A stretch of 64,000 bases of DNA from Pseudomonadota bacterium (GTDB lineage Bacteria; Pseudomonadota; Gammaproteobacteria; Burkholderiales; Burkholderiaceae_C). The notes under the pieces were generated by a model, which was not told where the DNA came from, did no database searches, and was given only the letters and a program-made list of their open reading frames with translations. Below are positions 24,143 through 32,085 of this stretch, piece by piece (positions within the stretch are counted from its first letter, which is position 1; each line of letters opens with the position of its first letter). The stretch covers positions 1 to 64,000 of the forward strand of contig JAVHYA010000013.1 of the NCBI GenBank assembly GCA_031119395.1. Reading direction: 5' to 3'. The translations under genes were made by a program, and so were the position numbers.

Positions 24143-24223
24143 TACAATGCACGCTGGGTGTCCGGCAGCTTCATGCCGGGCAGGTTCATGCGCAGGTCGG
24201 GCCGCCGCGCGGTTGGACTTCGC
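24143..24223 (+). promoter_or_regulatory. putative promoter and possibly structured leader of the antiporter gene
   Basis: TACAAT at 24143 is a good -10. The downstream 75 nt contain a stem CCGGCA-GCTTCA-TGCCGG and a second similar block (CAGGTTCATGCG), plus a possible long-range pairing of GTCC and GGAC. An ion-sensing riboswitch would suit the gene, but I cannot match this to any known riboswitch consensus. The two TTCATG blocks also hold in-frame ATGs, so coding is an alternative explanation. Confidence 0.25.
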
Positions 24224-27076: not shown

Positions 27077-29191
27077 CTAGAAGGTCCAGCGCGCCGACAC
27101 GCGCACGCTGCGCGGCTCCATGGGGTGCACATGGCGGTCGTCGATGCCGCCGCCGCACAGGCCGCTGGCGACTTCGCGCGCCGAGCAGGAGGCGTACCAG
27201 TACTCGATGTCGTTGCCCTTGCGGCCCGCGAGGTTGAACACCTGCAACCCGAGCGTGAGCTGCCGGTTCACCGCGTAGCTGGTGCCGAGGTTCAGCACCG
27301 TGAGCGGGCGCGAGCGCACCGTGTTGGTCGTGTCCAGCGCCCGCGCGCCCATGTAGCGCAGGCGCAGCGAACTGGTCCACGGCCCCTGCTGCCACACCAC
27401 GCCCGCGGCGACCACGCGCTCGACGGCGTTGTCGATGAAGTTGCCCTCGCCCTCGGGCGCCGGGCCGCGCAAGCGCGCGCGGGAGATGGCGGCATCGGCC
27501 TCCACGCGCCAGTGCGGGTCGATCTGCCAGCGCAGCGTCGCCTCGATGCCGCGGCGCTTGCTGGCGCGCCCGGGCTCGGTGGTGCCGGCATCGCCGACGT
27601 AGACCAGTTCCGAATCGAGCCGCAGCTGCCACAGCGCGGCCGTCACCGTGAGCGCCTGGCTCGGCTGGAAGCGCCAACCGACTTCGGCCCCCCTGCCCTT
27701 GACCAGCGCCGGCACGCGCTCGGCGGCCTCGCCGGTCTGCGGGTCGAGCGCGATGGTGGCGCCGCGCACGTCGTTGCTGTGCAGGCCCACGCCGGCGTTG
27801 AGGTACAGCTCGTGCGATGGCGCCACGGTCCAGGCGAGGCCGGCCTTGGGGCTGAGCTGCCCGTCATGCCCGCGCCCGCTGTTGAGGGCGCCGTACACCG
27901 GCTCGCGGCCGCGCACGTCGTAGCGCAGCCAGTCGCCGCGCAGGCCCAGGTAGCCGCGGAAGGTGCCGGTGAAGTTCACGAGCTGCTGGCCATGGAGCGA
28001 CACGAGGTCCTGCGAGACCTTGTCGTTGCGCACGGTGCCGGTGCGCTGGCGCGCCACGGTCGGGTAGAGCCCCACCTCGCCGATGCGGTCGCCGCGCCAC
28101 TGGGCGCCGACGCTCAGCACGCCGTCGAGCGTGCCCAGCTTCACGGGGCGCACGTGCGCGGCCTGCGCGCCGAAGACGCGGCGCCGGTCGGTCTGCTCGA
28201 ACTGGTCGCCCTGCTCGGGGTGGTTCAGGAAGTAGGTGAAGTCCGAGAAGAGGTCGAAGCGGTAGTCGATGGCATAGGCGCTCAGCGTCGTCTCGCCCTC
28301 GGGACCCTTGTCGAACCACTGGCCCGACAGCGACAGCCGGCGCGTGCGGCCGCCGTCGGTGGGGTTCATGCTGCCGAAGCGCGAGAGCTCGCCGCTGTCG
28401 ATCAGCCGCTGGGGCACCTGGTCGGTCGAGTTCCAGCGGCTCTGGTAGGCCATGCCGGTGAGGCTGAAGCCGCGCGCGGACGTGCCCTGCGCATGGCGCA
28501 GCACCGCGTTGGCCTTGCGCAGGCGCTCGGGCACCTCCCACGGGCCGTCGTTGCCTTCGAGCTCGACAGCGCCGAGCCAGGTCTGGTCCTGCACGGTGCG
28601 CGAGCCGGCGGCCAGCAGGCGGCGCAAGGCGTGCGCGCCCAGCGTGATCTCTGCGAAGGGCCGTTCCAGCGCGCTGAGGTAGTCCAGGCTGGCGCTGCCA
28701 GCGAGCGAGAAGTCGCCGCCGTCGGCGAAGTACGGCCCCTTGCGGTAGCGCACGCCCGACACGAGCTCGGGGATGAGGAAGTTGAGGTCCGCGAAGCCCT
28801 GGCCGTGGCCGTGCGTGGGCATGTTGACGGGCATGCCGTCGACGGTGACGGCGAAGTCGGTGCCGTGGTCGAGGTTGAAGCCGCGCAGGAAGTACTGGTT
28901 GGCCTTGCCGTCGCCGGAGTGCTGCGTGGCGACCACGCCGGGCACGGCCTCGACGATGTCGCCCGGCCGCAGCTTGGGCCGCGACTGGAAGGACGCCTTC
29001 TCGGCCGCGCCCTCGCTGGCACTGTCGGCGCTGCCGATGGCTGCATCGCGCGGGCCCCGGACCTGCACCTCGGGCAGGTGCGCGGTGGCCGAAGCCGGCT
29101 CGGCCAGCGCCGTTCCCGTGGCGCCGGCGGCCCCGGCCAGCACGATGCCCAGGCGCCGCACGATGCGCCGTGCGCAAGTCATCTTCCTCAT
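27077..29191 (-). CDS. TonB-dependent outer-membrane receptor, probably for nickel
   Basis: 704 residues. A signal peptide (RRLGIVLAGAAGATGTALA) is followed by a plug domain: PKLRPGDIVEAVPGVVATQH, NQYFLRGFNLDHGTDFAVTV and DGMPVNMPTHGHGQGFADLN. A beta-barrel follows, ending in the aromatic C-terminus VSARWTF. TonB-ExbBD-driven receptors import metal chelates, cobalamin or sugars. The THGHGQG histidine cluster and the NikR-like box GTATGA-N15-TCATAC, ending 12 bp upstream of the start, point to nickel chelate uptake. That inference is strengthened by nikR at 31582. The start is ATG 29191 (MRKMTCARR); the ATG at 29182 is an alternative. Confidence 0.88.
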   Translation of the reverse strand: MRKMTCARRIVRRLGIVLAGAAGATGTALAEPASATAHLPEVQVRGPRDAAIGSADSASEGAAEKASFQSRPKLRPGDIVEAVPGVVATQHSGDGKANQYFLRGFNLDHGTDFAVTVDGMPVNMPTHGHGQGFADLNFLIPELVSGVRYRKGPYFADGGDFSLAGSASLDYLSALERPFAEITLGAHALRRLLAAGSRTVQDQTWLGAVELEGNDGPWEVPERLRKANAVLRHAQGTSARGFSLTGMAYQSRWNSTDQVPQRLIDSGELSRFGSMNPTDGGRTRRLSLSGQWFDKGPEGETTLSAYAIDYRFDLFSDFTYFLNHPEQGDQFEQTDRRRVFGAQAAHVRPVKLGTLDGVLSVGAQWRGDRIGEVGLYPTVARQRTGTVRNDKVSQDLVSLHGQQLVNFTGTFRGYLGLRGDWLRYDVRGREPVYGALNSGRGHDGQLSPKAGLAWTVAPSHELYLNAGVGLHSNDVRGATIALDPQTGEAAERVPALVKGRGAEVGWRFQPSQALTVTAALWQLRLDSELVYVGDAGTTEPGRASKRRGIEATLRWQIDPHWRVEADAAISRARLRGPAPEGEGNFIDNAVERVVAAGVVWQQGPWTSSLRLRYMGARALDTTNTVRSRPLTVLNLGTSYAVNRQLTLGLQVFNLAGRKGNDIEYWYASCSAREVASGLCGGGIDDRHVHPMEPRSVRVSARWTF

Positions 29192-29202: not shown

Positions 29203-29229
29203 GTATGAATAAATCTAGATTCTTCATAC
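29203..29229. promoter_or_regulatory. NikR-like operator upstream of the TonB receptor
   Basis: GTATGA-N15-TCATAC, with an internal AATCTAGATT palindrome, lies 12 bp before the receptor ATG in an island of AT-rich DNA. The E. coli NikR operator is GTATGA-N16-TCATAC, so both half-sites match perfectly and the spacer is one base shorter. Position over the promoter fits repression by nickel-loaded NikR. Confidence 0.72.
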
Positions 29230-29287
29230 ATCGTGGCGGCGGAGCCATACGCCATCCGGCGAACGCGCGGCGCTCGCGCGGCGATGC

Positions 29288-30217
29288 TCAGGCCGCGGCC
29301 CGCACCGCCCGTGCGTAGGCCGTGGGCGTGTGGCCGACGTGCCGCGTGAAGGCCACGCTGAAGGCACTGCCCGAGCCGTAGCCCACGCGCTCGGCGATGT
29401 CCGCGGCCTTCAGCCGGCCCTCGCGCAGCAGCTCCCTGGCGATCTCCATGCGCCAGGCCAGCAGGTATTCCATGGGCGCGACGCCGACCGCGCGGGTGAA
29501 GCGTTCGTAGAAGCTCGAACGCGAGAGCGCCGCCGCCCGCGCCAGGCGCTCGACGGTCCAGGGCTGGTCGACACCGGCATGCATCTGCTCCAGCGCGACG
29601 GCCAGGCGCGGGTCGCCCAGCCCGCGCAGCAGGCCGGGCGGCGCCTGCTCCGGCGGCGTGGCGCGCATGGCCTCGACGAGCAGCAGCTCGACCAGCCGCG
29701 CGCGCACGAAGTCGCCGCCCGGGCGGGGGTCGGCGCTTTCCTCGGCCACCATGCGCACCAGCGCCGACAGCCGCGACGAACCCCGCACGCACACGAGGCC
29801 CGGCAGCAGCGCGACGAGCAAGGCCGGGTCCGCGCGGTCGAAGACGAAGGCGCCGCCCAGGGAGCGCATGTCCGGCGGGCCGGCGGGTTCGCCGTAGCGC
29901 AGCTCGCGGCCACCGGTGGGCAGCGCGTGCGGGTCCATGGCCACGGGCGCCGCCGCATCGCTGCTGGCCAGGGTGAAGGCCGGCGTGCGCGGCAGCAGCA
30001 CGAAGTCGCCCGCGCCGACCTCGATCGGCTCCTGCCCGTCGACGGCGAGGCGGCAGGTGCCCTCCAGAAAGATGCAGAAGGAGGGCCGGCCGTAGGCGGC
30101 GAATCGCACCGCCCAGTCGCCCTTGCCGCCGATGGCGTTGGCGAACACCGCGCGGGGGTGCAGCAGCGCCACCACCTGCGAGAGCGCGTCGGGGGAGTTC
30201 GGACGATCGCTAAACAA
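29288..30217 (-). CDS. AraC-family regulator with cupin sensor domain
   Basis: About 309 residues. The N-terminal half is a cupin (SFCIFLEGTCRLAVDGQEPI, VGAGDFVLLPRTPAF) of the type that sits in front of AraC domains. The C-terminal 100 residues carry both HTH motifs (WTVERLARAAALSRSSFYER and LKAADIAERVGYGSGSAFSV) and the terminal AFTRHVGHTPTAYARA. The start appears to be TTG at 30217, since no ATG precedes the cupin. An in-frame GTG slightly downstream is possible. It is divergent from the SDR gene at 30303 and is its probable regulator. Confidence 0.88.
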   Translation of the reverse strand: MFSDRPNSPDALSQVVALLHPRAVFANAIGGKGDWAVRFAAYGRPSFCIFLEGTCRLAVDGQEPIEVGAGDFVLLPRTPAFTLASSDAAAPVAMDPHALPTGGRELRYGEPAGPPDMRSLGGAFVFDRADPALLVALLPGLVCVRGSSRLSALVRMVAEESADPRPGGDFVRARLVELLLVEAMRATPPEQAPPGLLRGLGDPRLAVALEQMHAGVDQPWTVERLARAAALSRSSFYERFTRAVGVAPMEYLLAWRMEIARELLREGRLKAADIAERVGYGSGSAFSVAFTRHVGHTPTAYARAVRAAA

Positions 30218-30302: not shown

Positions 30303-31076
30303 ATGAAAACCGCCCTCGTCACCGGCTGCTCGTCCGGCTACGGCCTGCAGATCGCCCGCCACTTCCATGCCATGGGCTGGCGCGTCGTCGCCACCATGCG
30401 CCAGCCCCGGCCGGCCCTGCTGCCGGAGGCCGACACCATCCGGGTGCTGCCCCTGGACGTGACGGACGCACAGAGCATCGCGCGCCTGGTGGCGGCGGCC
30501 GGGCCGGTCGACGTGCTGGTCAACAACGCCGGACTCGGGCTCTTCGGCGCCTTCGAGGCGACGCCGTTGGCGACGGTGCGCGAGATCTTCGAGACCAACA
30601 CCTTCGGCACGATGGCCATGTGCCAGGCCTTCATCCCGCAGTGGCGCGCGCGCCGGTCGGGCATGGTGGTGAACGTGACCTCGAGCGCGACGCTGGCGCC
30701 CTTCCCGCTCGTGGCGGCCTACACCGCCAGCAAGTCGGCCATCGAGGGCTTCACCGAATCGCTGGCGCTCGAGCTGGCCGCCTTCGGCGTGCGTGCGCGG
30801 CTGGTCGAGCCGGGCTACTGCCCCGACACGCGCTTCGCCACCAATGGCGCCGTGCGGATGCAGGGACTGATCCCCGAGGCCTATGGCCGCTATGCGCAAG
30901 GCGTCTTCGAGCAGCTTGCCGGCGTCGGCGAAACGACGCAGCCCGCCGACGTGGCGCAGGCGGTGTGGCAGGCCGCGAACGACCCGTCGGGTCGCCTGCG
31001 CTTCGCGGCGGGCGCGGACGCGGTGGCCCTGGCCCGGGCAGGAAGCGGCGTCAGTGCCGATGCGTGCGCGGCCTGA
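30303..31076 (+). CDS. SDR family oxidoreductase
   Basis: 257 residues. TALVTGCSSGYGLQIARHFH is the TGxxxGxG cofactor loop, VDVLVNNAGLGLFG is the NNAG motif, and the active site is Ser in VVNVTSSATLAPFP with Tyr and Lys in AAYTASKSAIEGF. The C-terminal part resembles the 17-beta-hydroxysteroid-dehydrogenase-like or retinol-dehydrogenase-like SDR branch. The reaction is NAD(P)-dependent alcohol/ketone interconversion, and the substrate is unknown. GAAGGAA lies about 9 nt before the ATG. Its gene diverges from the AraC regulator with an 85-bp shared promoter region. Confidence 0.9.
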   Translation: MKTALVTGCSSGYGLQIARHFHAMGWRVVATMRQPRPALLPEADTIRVLPLDVTDAQSIARLVAAAGPVDVLVNNAGLGLFGAFEATPLATVREIFETNTFGTMAMCQAFIPQWRARRSGMVVNVTSSATLAPFPLVAAYTASKSAIEGFTESLALELAAFGVRARLVEPGYCPDTRFATNGAVRMQGLIPEAYGRYAQGVFEQLAGVGETTQPADVAQAVWQAANDPSGRLRFAAGADAVALARAGSGVSADACAA

Positions 31077-31097: not shown

Positions 31098-31526
31098 TCA
31101 TCCGGCGCTGCCCAGGCGCTCCAGCGCGGCCCGGCGGCTCAACTGCTTGAGGGCGCCGAGCTGGCGCACCTGTTCGGGCCGCGGCCGTGTCTGGCCCTGT
31201 TCCCACAGGTAGACGCTGGCACCGCTCATGCCCACCAGCCGGCCGTAGTCGGCGGCGGACAGGCCCAGCTTCCTGCGGTGCGCCGCCAGCCGCGTCGCGC
31301 TGAAGCGGTACTGGCGGTCTTCGGCGGGTTGCACCTTGACCTCGGCCGAGCGGGCGCGGCCGGCCTGGCGCAGTTCCTTCTGCAAGGCCGCCACCTCGCG
31401 CCGCAGGGCCGCGATCGCGCTGCGCTGCTGGGCGCTGGCTTTCTTGAGGCTCTCGATTTCCGACCGGACTTCCTTGCGCGCGACGCGTGCAATCTCCGCC
31501 TTGAGGATGGATGCGATGTTGGCCAT
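31098..31526 (-). CDS. XRE-like HTH protein with N-terminal coiled coil
   Basis: 142 residues. The first 65 form a coiled coil (EVRSEIESLKKASAQQRSAI, LRREVAALQKELRQ), probably for dimerisation. The second half is a Cro/CI-type helix-turn-helix (AAHRRKLGLSAADYGRLVGM, SGASVYLWEQGQTRP). It may be a DNA-binding regulator related to the zinc-ribbon-less MqsA/XRE group. It converges on the SDR gene and lies downstream of nikR in the same direction, about 55 nt away. Targets are unknown. Confidence 0.82.
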   Translation of the reverse strand: MANIASILKAEIARVARKEVRSEIESLKKASAQQRSAIAALRREVAALQKELRQAGRARSAEVKVQPAEDRQYRFSATRLAAHRRKLGLSAADYGRLVGMSGASVYLWEQGQTRPRPEQVRQLGALKQLSRRAALERLGSAG

Positions 31527-31581: not shown

Positions 31582-32085
31582 TCAGTTCAGCGGCCTGAAA
31601 TGCGTGTGCGCATGGCCGCCGTGGGCATGCGCGCGGCCGGCGGCCCCCAGCGGCACCAGGTGGATGTTCCCGTGCCTCACGCCGCGCAGTGCGACGAGCT
31701 GCTGCGCGCAGGCCTGCACCGCGGGCGTCGGGCCGCGCAGGACCACCGTCTCCAGGCAGTGGTCGTGGTCGAGGTGGGTGTGCAGGCTGGTGATGACGAG
31801 GTCGTGGTGGTCGTGCTGCAGGTCGAGCACGCGGGCCGTCACGGTCTGCTCGTGGTGGTCGTACACGTAGCTCACGTTGGCCACGCACCACGGCGCTTCG
31901 CCGCGGCCCTTGCGTGCGCCGGTGGCCTGGGCGGGCCCGTCGGCGGCGCCGAGCGACGCGCGTCCCAGGCGCGACCGGATCAGGTCGCGCACGGCCTCGG
32001 ACCGGTTGTCGTAGCCCTGCTCGGCGATGAAGGCATCGAACTGCTGGGCGAGCGCATCGTCGAGGGAGATGGTGAAGCGTTGCAT
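31582..32085 (-). CDS. nikR: nickel-responsive transcriptional regulator NikR
   Basis: 167 residues. The ribbon-helix-helix domain is MQRFTISLDDALAQQFDAFI plus NRSEAVRDLIRSRLGR. The C-terminal ACT-like nickel-binding domain has the ligand set His and Cys in VYDHHEQTVTARVLD and SLHTHLDHDHCLETVV, equivalent to E. coli His76, His87, His89 and Cys95. Nickel-loaded NikR represses uptake genes. The length exceeds the usual 130-140 residues because of an insert after the RHH (GADGPAQATGARKGRGEAP) and a His-rich tail (HAHGGHAHTHF). No nik permease genes are next to it. The NikR-like box at 29203 marks a likely target. Confidence 0.95.
   Translation of the reverse strand: MQRFTISLDDALAQQFDAFIAEQGYDNRSEAVRDLIRSRLGRASLGAADGPAQATGARKGRGEAPWCVANVSYVYDHHEQTVTARVLDLQHDHHDLVITSLHTHLDHDHCLETVVLRGPTPAVQACAQQLVALRGVRHGNIHLVPLGAAGRAHAHGGHAHTHFRPLN

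Follow-up and report, generated by a model that had tools for sequence, protein, structure and literature searches.

A predicted NikR operator in front of a TonB-dependent receptor gene disappears together with nikR in Pseudacidovorax

The stretch of DNA analysed here, which we call the window, comprises 64,000 nucleotides and carries a gene for a TonB-dependent outer-membrane receptor (27080..29191, minus strand; Pfam Plug and TonB_dep_Rec_b-barrel), a predicted importer of nickel or a nickel chelate. Just before this gene lies the palindrome GTATGAATAAATCTAGATTCTTCATAC (29203-29229, strand not applicable). NikR operators are palindromes of the form GTATGA...TCATAC with a length of 27-28 bp, and the site, at 27 bp, is an exact GTATGA-N15-TCATAC. 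Upstream of it are genes for an AraC-type regulator (29288..30217, minus strand; HTH_18 and Cupin_6), a short-chain dehydrogenase (SDR; 30303..31076, plus strand; adh_short) and a small HTH protein (31098..31526, minus strand; HTH_31). They are followed by nikR, encoding the nickel-responsive regulator (31585..32085, minus strand), whose end is 2,355 bp from the box. An earlier note, made from the letters of the window, had reported the exact site with these coordinates and this spacing, and nikR about 2.4 kb upstream (2.36 kb by our count), and was correct in both. It had also put the box 12 bp before the receptor start; we count 11 bp to the first in-frame ATG (29191) and 20 bp to the ATG that is common to the nearest relatives (29182).

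Two further elements of the window deserve mention. Nearly all of ten aligned loci of the genus share a conserved TGGCGTAT (29247-29254 in the window, minus strand) on the upstream side of the operator, at a distance of roughly 14-17 bp; it is a candidate promoter part or extra half-site. Elsewhere, an nhaA-I RNA (RF03057, 55.8 bits; 24156-24209, plus strand) is located directly 5′ of an ORF for a putative Na+/H+ antiporter (PF07399, from 24233), and the two form a riboswitch-antiporter pair.

The protein encoded by nikR has both the ribbon-helix-helix and the C-terminal domain of NikR (Pfam RHH_1, 2.2e-07; NikR_C, 1.6e-27). It passes the NCBIfam cut-offs of PRK02967 (157.9 bits, cut-off 83) and PRK04460 (132.5, cut-off 105), and falls under that of TIGR02793, the nikR model (125.1, cut-off 175.45). 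All four nickel ligands align with, and are conserved relative to, those of E. coli NikR (H76, H87, H89 and C95). The DNA-reading strand is R-F-T-I-S, compared to R-V-T-I-T in E. coli, such that R3 and T5 are kept and position 7 has S for T. The linker is longer than that of the E. coli protein, and there is a His-rich tail.

The genome (5.14 Mb, 99.87% complete) contains no GTATGA-N13..18-TCATAC site besides the box. Thus, the search for additional N15/N16 sites that the earlier note had proposed turned up none. Within the window, one site with at most two mismatches was seen, the exact one, versus 0.24 expected from shuffled windows.

We compared the locus among 15 Pseudacidovorax genomes, counting receptors with at least 80% identity. 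There are 14 such receptors, in 12 of the 15 genomes, and nikR is present in 10 of the 15, including 9 of the 12 with a receptor. Every receptor in a nikR-containing genome has the exact N15 box 5′ of its gene (11 of 11). By contrast, no box was found at the receptors of the three genomes without nikR (G150, G157 and G159; 0 of 3), even at two mismatches, and nikR was not found in these three by any search, a Pfam profile search included. The association of box and nikR has a Fisher p of 0.003, although the tree weighs more than this value because the loci are related. On the tree, the three boxless receptors occupy three different branches, and its starred branches force three changes. Across the ten distinct operators of the genus, the six-base arms are invariant and the center of the spacer is variable.

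The genes around the receptor vary as well. In G159 (locus L142), the receptor directly follows an ABC operon of the Opp/Dpp/Nik type. In its sister G153 (L114), and also in G160 C17 (L135), an operon of this type precedes nikR, the box and the receptor, in that order, as if nikR and the box had been lost as one piece in G159. The genes of these operons were named from their translations, and only the NikA-like protein was assigned by profile.

Many TonB receptors are governed by an adjoining AraC-type regulator. The AraC-type gene in the window is closer to the site than nikR, with its end 58 bp away, and could control the receptor, leaving the palindrome as a relic or a minor element. Several observations make this arrangement very unlikely. 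The site is exact in the lineage that bears the AraC-type gene, box and nikR were lost jointly, and nikR is immediately upstream of the box and receptor in G071, G153, G154, G155, G160 (both copies), G156 (second copy) and G161. The window shares its gap of approximately 2.3 kb between nikR and the box with G156 C1; the two genes of G158, nikR and the receptor gene, are found on separate contigs. Since nikR directly precedes the box in most relatives, the distance is a trait of the window's lineage and leaves the link of NikR to the site as strong as before.

In a wider comparison, we collected 80 relative loci from named genomes, at least two of which are also in the genus set; the upstream sequence is 400 bases or longer in 77. 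A box with at most one mismatch and a spacing of N15 or N16 precedes 13 of the 25 receptors with nikR in the locus versus 3 of the 52 without (Fisher p 9e-6, a value that overstates independence because the 77 loci are related). Control stretches contained 1 site in 778. The remaining 12 of the 25 nikR-linked receptors have no recognizable box, which speaks against a universal rule. Two loci, L157 and L171, have a perfect variant palindrome, GTAAGA-N15-TCTTAC, before their nikR-linked receptors, and the metal sites of their NikR proteins depart from HxH...C. In most of the other boxless nikR-linked loci, no clear variant operator was found. The NikR metal site is altered in some of the 12. Taken together, the co-loss in the genus and the enrichment of the box beside nikR in distant relatives strongly support the prediction that NikR controls the receptor.

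Among 150 genomes of the family, exact sites with N15 occur in 10 and with other spacings in 7 (N14 in three, N17 in two, N18 in two, N13 and N16 in none), with G147 having both. A control with the reversed pattern matched 7 genomes, compared to 16 for the true pattern. The N14, N17 and N18 sites are presumably there by chance, and one might ask whether the palindrome in the window is a chance match too. However, nikR is present in none of these 7 genomes versus 8 of the 10 with N15, and within the genus the site is conserved in step with nikR (11 of 11 versus 0 of 3), so that chance can hardly be the explanation. Two genomes count against the NikR reading. In G147 (L145), which lacks nikR, an exact N15 box lies where a homologous receptor begins, and G005 has an N15 box with neither nikR nor a homologous receptor. 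The G147 box might be a relic or the site of another regulator.

The N15 spacing had been described as one base short of the N16 box of E. coli. The spacing is as described, but it is not an oddity. The enterobacterial consensus given in a passage of PMC545781 is GTATGAT-[N13/14]-ATCATAC, which equals N15/N16 when the arms are counted as six bases. Sites with at most one mismatch in the 80 relative loci comprise eight with N15, eight with N16 and one with N13. All eight N15 loci are betaproteobacterial by name; the N16 loci belong to Bradyrhizobium, Rhodopseudomonas and Afipia (six), a Sphingomonadales MAG and a Methyloversatilis MAG. Because this consensus, as that passage gives it, allows both spacings and because betaproteobacterial sites mostly have N15 and those of the Bradyrhizobium type N16, N15 reflects lineage and is no defect. 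We rejected the length of the NikR linker as the cause of the difference, as the distance between markers is 61 to 75 residues with N15 and 60 to 62 with N16. NikR residue 7 is S with N15 and T with most N16 sites (L219, L186 and L097 are exceptions, with S and N16), which is only suggestive of a tie between this residue and the spacing.

The receptor itself appears to be an ordinary TonB transporter. Plug and barrel were recognized by Pfam, in the structural model (mean pLDDT 86.1) and by fold search. The best PDB matches are PqqU and FecA; BtuB and OprC, a copper receptor, rank lower. The THGHGQG loop in the plug that the earlier note had pointed out is real (residues 126-132; 28796..28816, minus strand) and falls within the Pfam Plug match (residues 65-165). 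In a sequence alignment, it is opposite a plug loop of BtuB, a loop that takes part in B12 binding. Its histidines, H127 and H129, are invariant in 32 aligned family members, as are H91, H109, H471 and H689, and a loose pattern of the loop matches in 69 of the 80 relative loci. However, the aligned set includes receptors without nikR in the locus, and the loop is kept equally in these. Because it marks the receptor family as a whole, the loop is no proof of nickel, and the earlier argument from a His cluster is weak.

The case for nickel as the cargo comes instead from regulation and gene neighborhood. The receptor's single match on pHCG3, presumably pHCG3_081, lies next to nikR and is 40.4% identical over 90% of the query, which establishes homology to a published receptor cluster. 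Hyp genes are also beside this pHCG3 gene. On pHG1, the homologue is beside HoxN and a nickel hydrogenase, and neither nikR nor a box was found in the surrounding stretch. In Paraburkholderia acidisoli, it is beside nikR and HoxN, with no box at one mismatch or fewer. The receptor is 46-48% identical to those of Bradyrhizobium and Rhodopseudomonas that have nikR and an N16 box.

NikR could have been borrowed as a sensor, such that it controls a receptor for which nickel is not the cargo or not the only one, with cobalt or another metal chelate being carried. The receptor family does also occur in loci without nikR (52 of 77), and HupE_UreJ_2 and DUF4331 are found in 19 and 17 of the 80 relative loci, two of which also have nikR. 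Therefore, the range of substrates may extend beyond nickel, and a passage of PMC3400609 gives the cluster as nickel and cobalt receptors (pHCG3_081, Bll6948, RPA_4757 and Daro_3944). We nonetheless judge a cargo other than, or beyond, nickel to be unlikely, given that NikR-linked or related members occur with HoxN, hydrogenase and hyp genes, that urease is found throughout the genus (15 of 15 genomes), and that neither a cobalamin riboswitch nor any other Rfam element was detected in seven loci of the genus, the boxless ones included. These nil matches also led us to reject riboswitch control of the boxless receptors. Nickel or a nickel chelate is a plausible cargo and the best reading.

The loci with HupE_UreJ_2 and DUF4331 suggest that this receptor family also has a second setting, one independent of NikR. 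A literature search returned no paper on DUF4331 with a HupE/TonB cluster among the matches listed. In G150 (L141:6916-13202), a HupE_UreJ_2 gene lies just upstream of the boxless receptor, and DUF4331 is close by. We tentatively raise the possibility that the family is a general nickel/cobalt-chelate importer that has been plugged into NikR control (with N15 in betaproteobacteria and N16 in relatives of Bradyrhizobium), into Opp/Dpp/Nik-type ABC operons and into a mostly NikR-free HupE_UreJ_2 and DUF4331 cluster, the last of which would be an undescribed second route of metal uptake.

The earlier note had stated that nik ABC genes are absent, and at the curated cut-off for NikA this holds for all 15 genomes of the genus. 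The best match in the window's own genome scores 153 bits against a cut-off of 393, and we rejected such matches as NikA, as they are below the cut-off and fit general Opp/Dpp-type proteins. NicO and CbiM were likewise rejected as the nickel permease; no NicO-family permease was found in the 15 genomes, and no CbiM in the window's own. HupE/UreJ is present in 13 of the 15. In the window's genome (G000), it is about 0.5 kb from a match to the urease alpha subunit, on the same contig and strand. This HupE/UreJ protein beside the urease genes would be the likeliest inner-membrane partner.

Our preferred reading is that the palindrome at 29203-29229 serves as operator for the NikR whose gene lies 2.36 kb upstream, and that the receptor is very probably a NikR-repressed importer of nickel or a nickel chelate, with HupE/UreJ as the inner step. 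When the cell has ample nickel, a nickel-bound NikR tetramer would occupy the site in front of the receptor gene, thereby repressing that gene. Under nickel scarcity, the receptor would be made and would bring nickel or its chelate into the periplasm, driven by TonB; the HupE/UreJ permease would then carry nickel across the inner membrane for urease. Of the outer-membrane nickel-chelate importer originally proposed, NikR control is thus upheld by co-loss and box enrichment and nickel import is the best reading, but the His argument is not upheld. Since switch and sensor were lost together in close relatives, the receptor is almost certainly an importer under nickel control, of a kind that had been predicted before. 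A guess about one site has become a computationally tested prediction, with three branches on which the operator has gone along with the regulator. For a direct comparison, nature supplies receptor genes that have the operator and others that lack it.

The window's receptor belongs to a known, mostly predicted kind of nickel/cobalt receptor, which it extends to a further genus; a literature search on NikR in Pseudacidovorax gave no paper on the subject among the matches listed. A passage of PMC11247825 gives the receptors of the Bll6948/Daro_3944/RPA_4757/pHCG3_081 cluster as nickel transporters. Daro_3944 and Bll6948 are marked as predicted in a table of PMC7142613, and passages of both papers credit the prediction of the Bll6948/pHCG3_081 cluster to Rodionov 2006. 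Like these, the receptor is a homologous TonB receptor, with approximately 40% identity to the pHCG3 one beside nikR. Unlike the Bll6948/pHCG3_081 cluster, it is betaproteobacterial, has an N15 box and is separated from nikR by three genes. FrpB4 and FecA3 of H. pylori, NikR-repressed nickel receptors according to a passage of PMC11247825, are similar in being outer-membrane receptors for nickel under NikR, although in our case both the control and the cargo are predicted. Compared to the E. coli NikR/nik operator, the arms GTATGA/TCATAC and the set of NikR ligands are the same. The H. pylori receptors and their operator are different ones. Differences from E. coli are the spacing of N15 for N16, the His-rich tail of NikR, its longer linker (the marker distance in L130, a close relative, is 75 residues versus 60 in E. 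coli) and the predicted target, which is a receptor and not nikABCDE.
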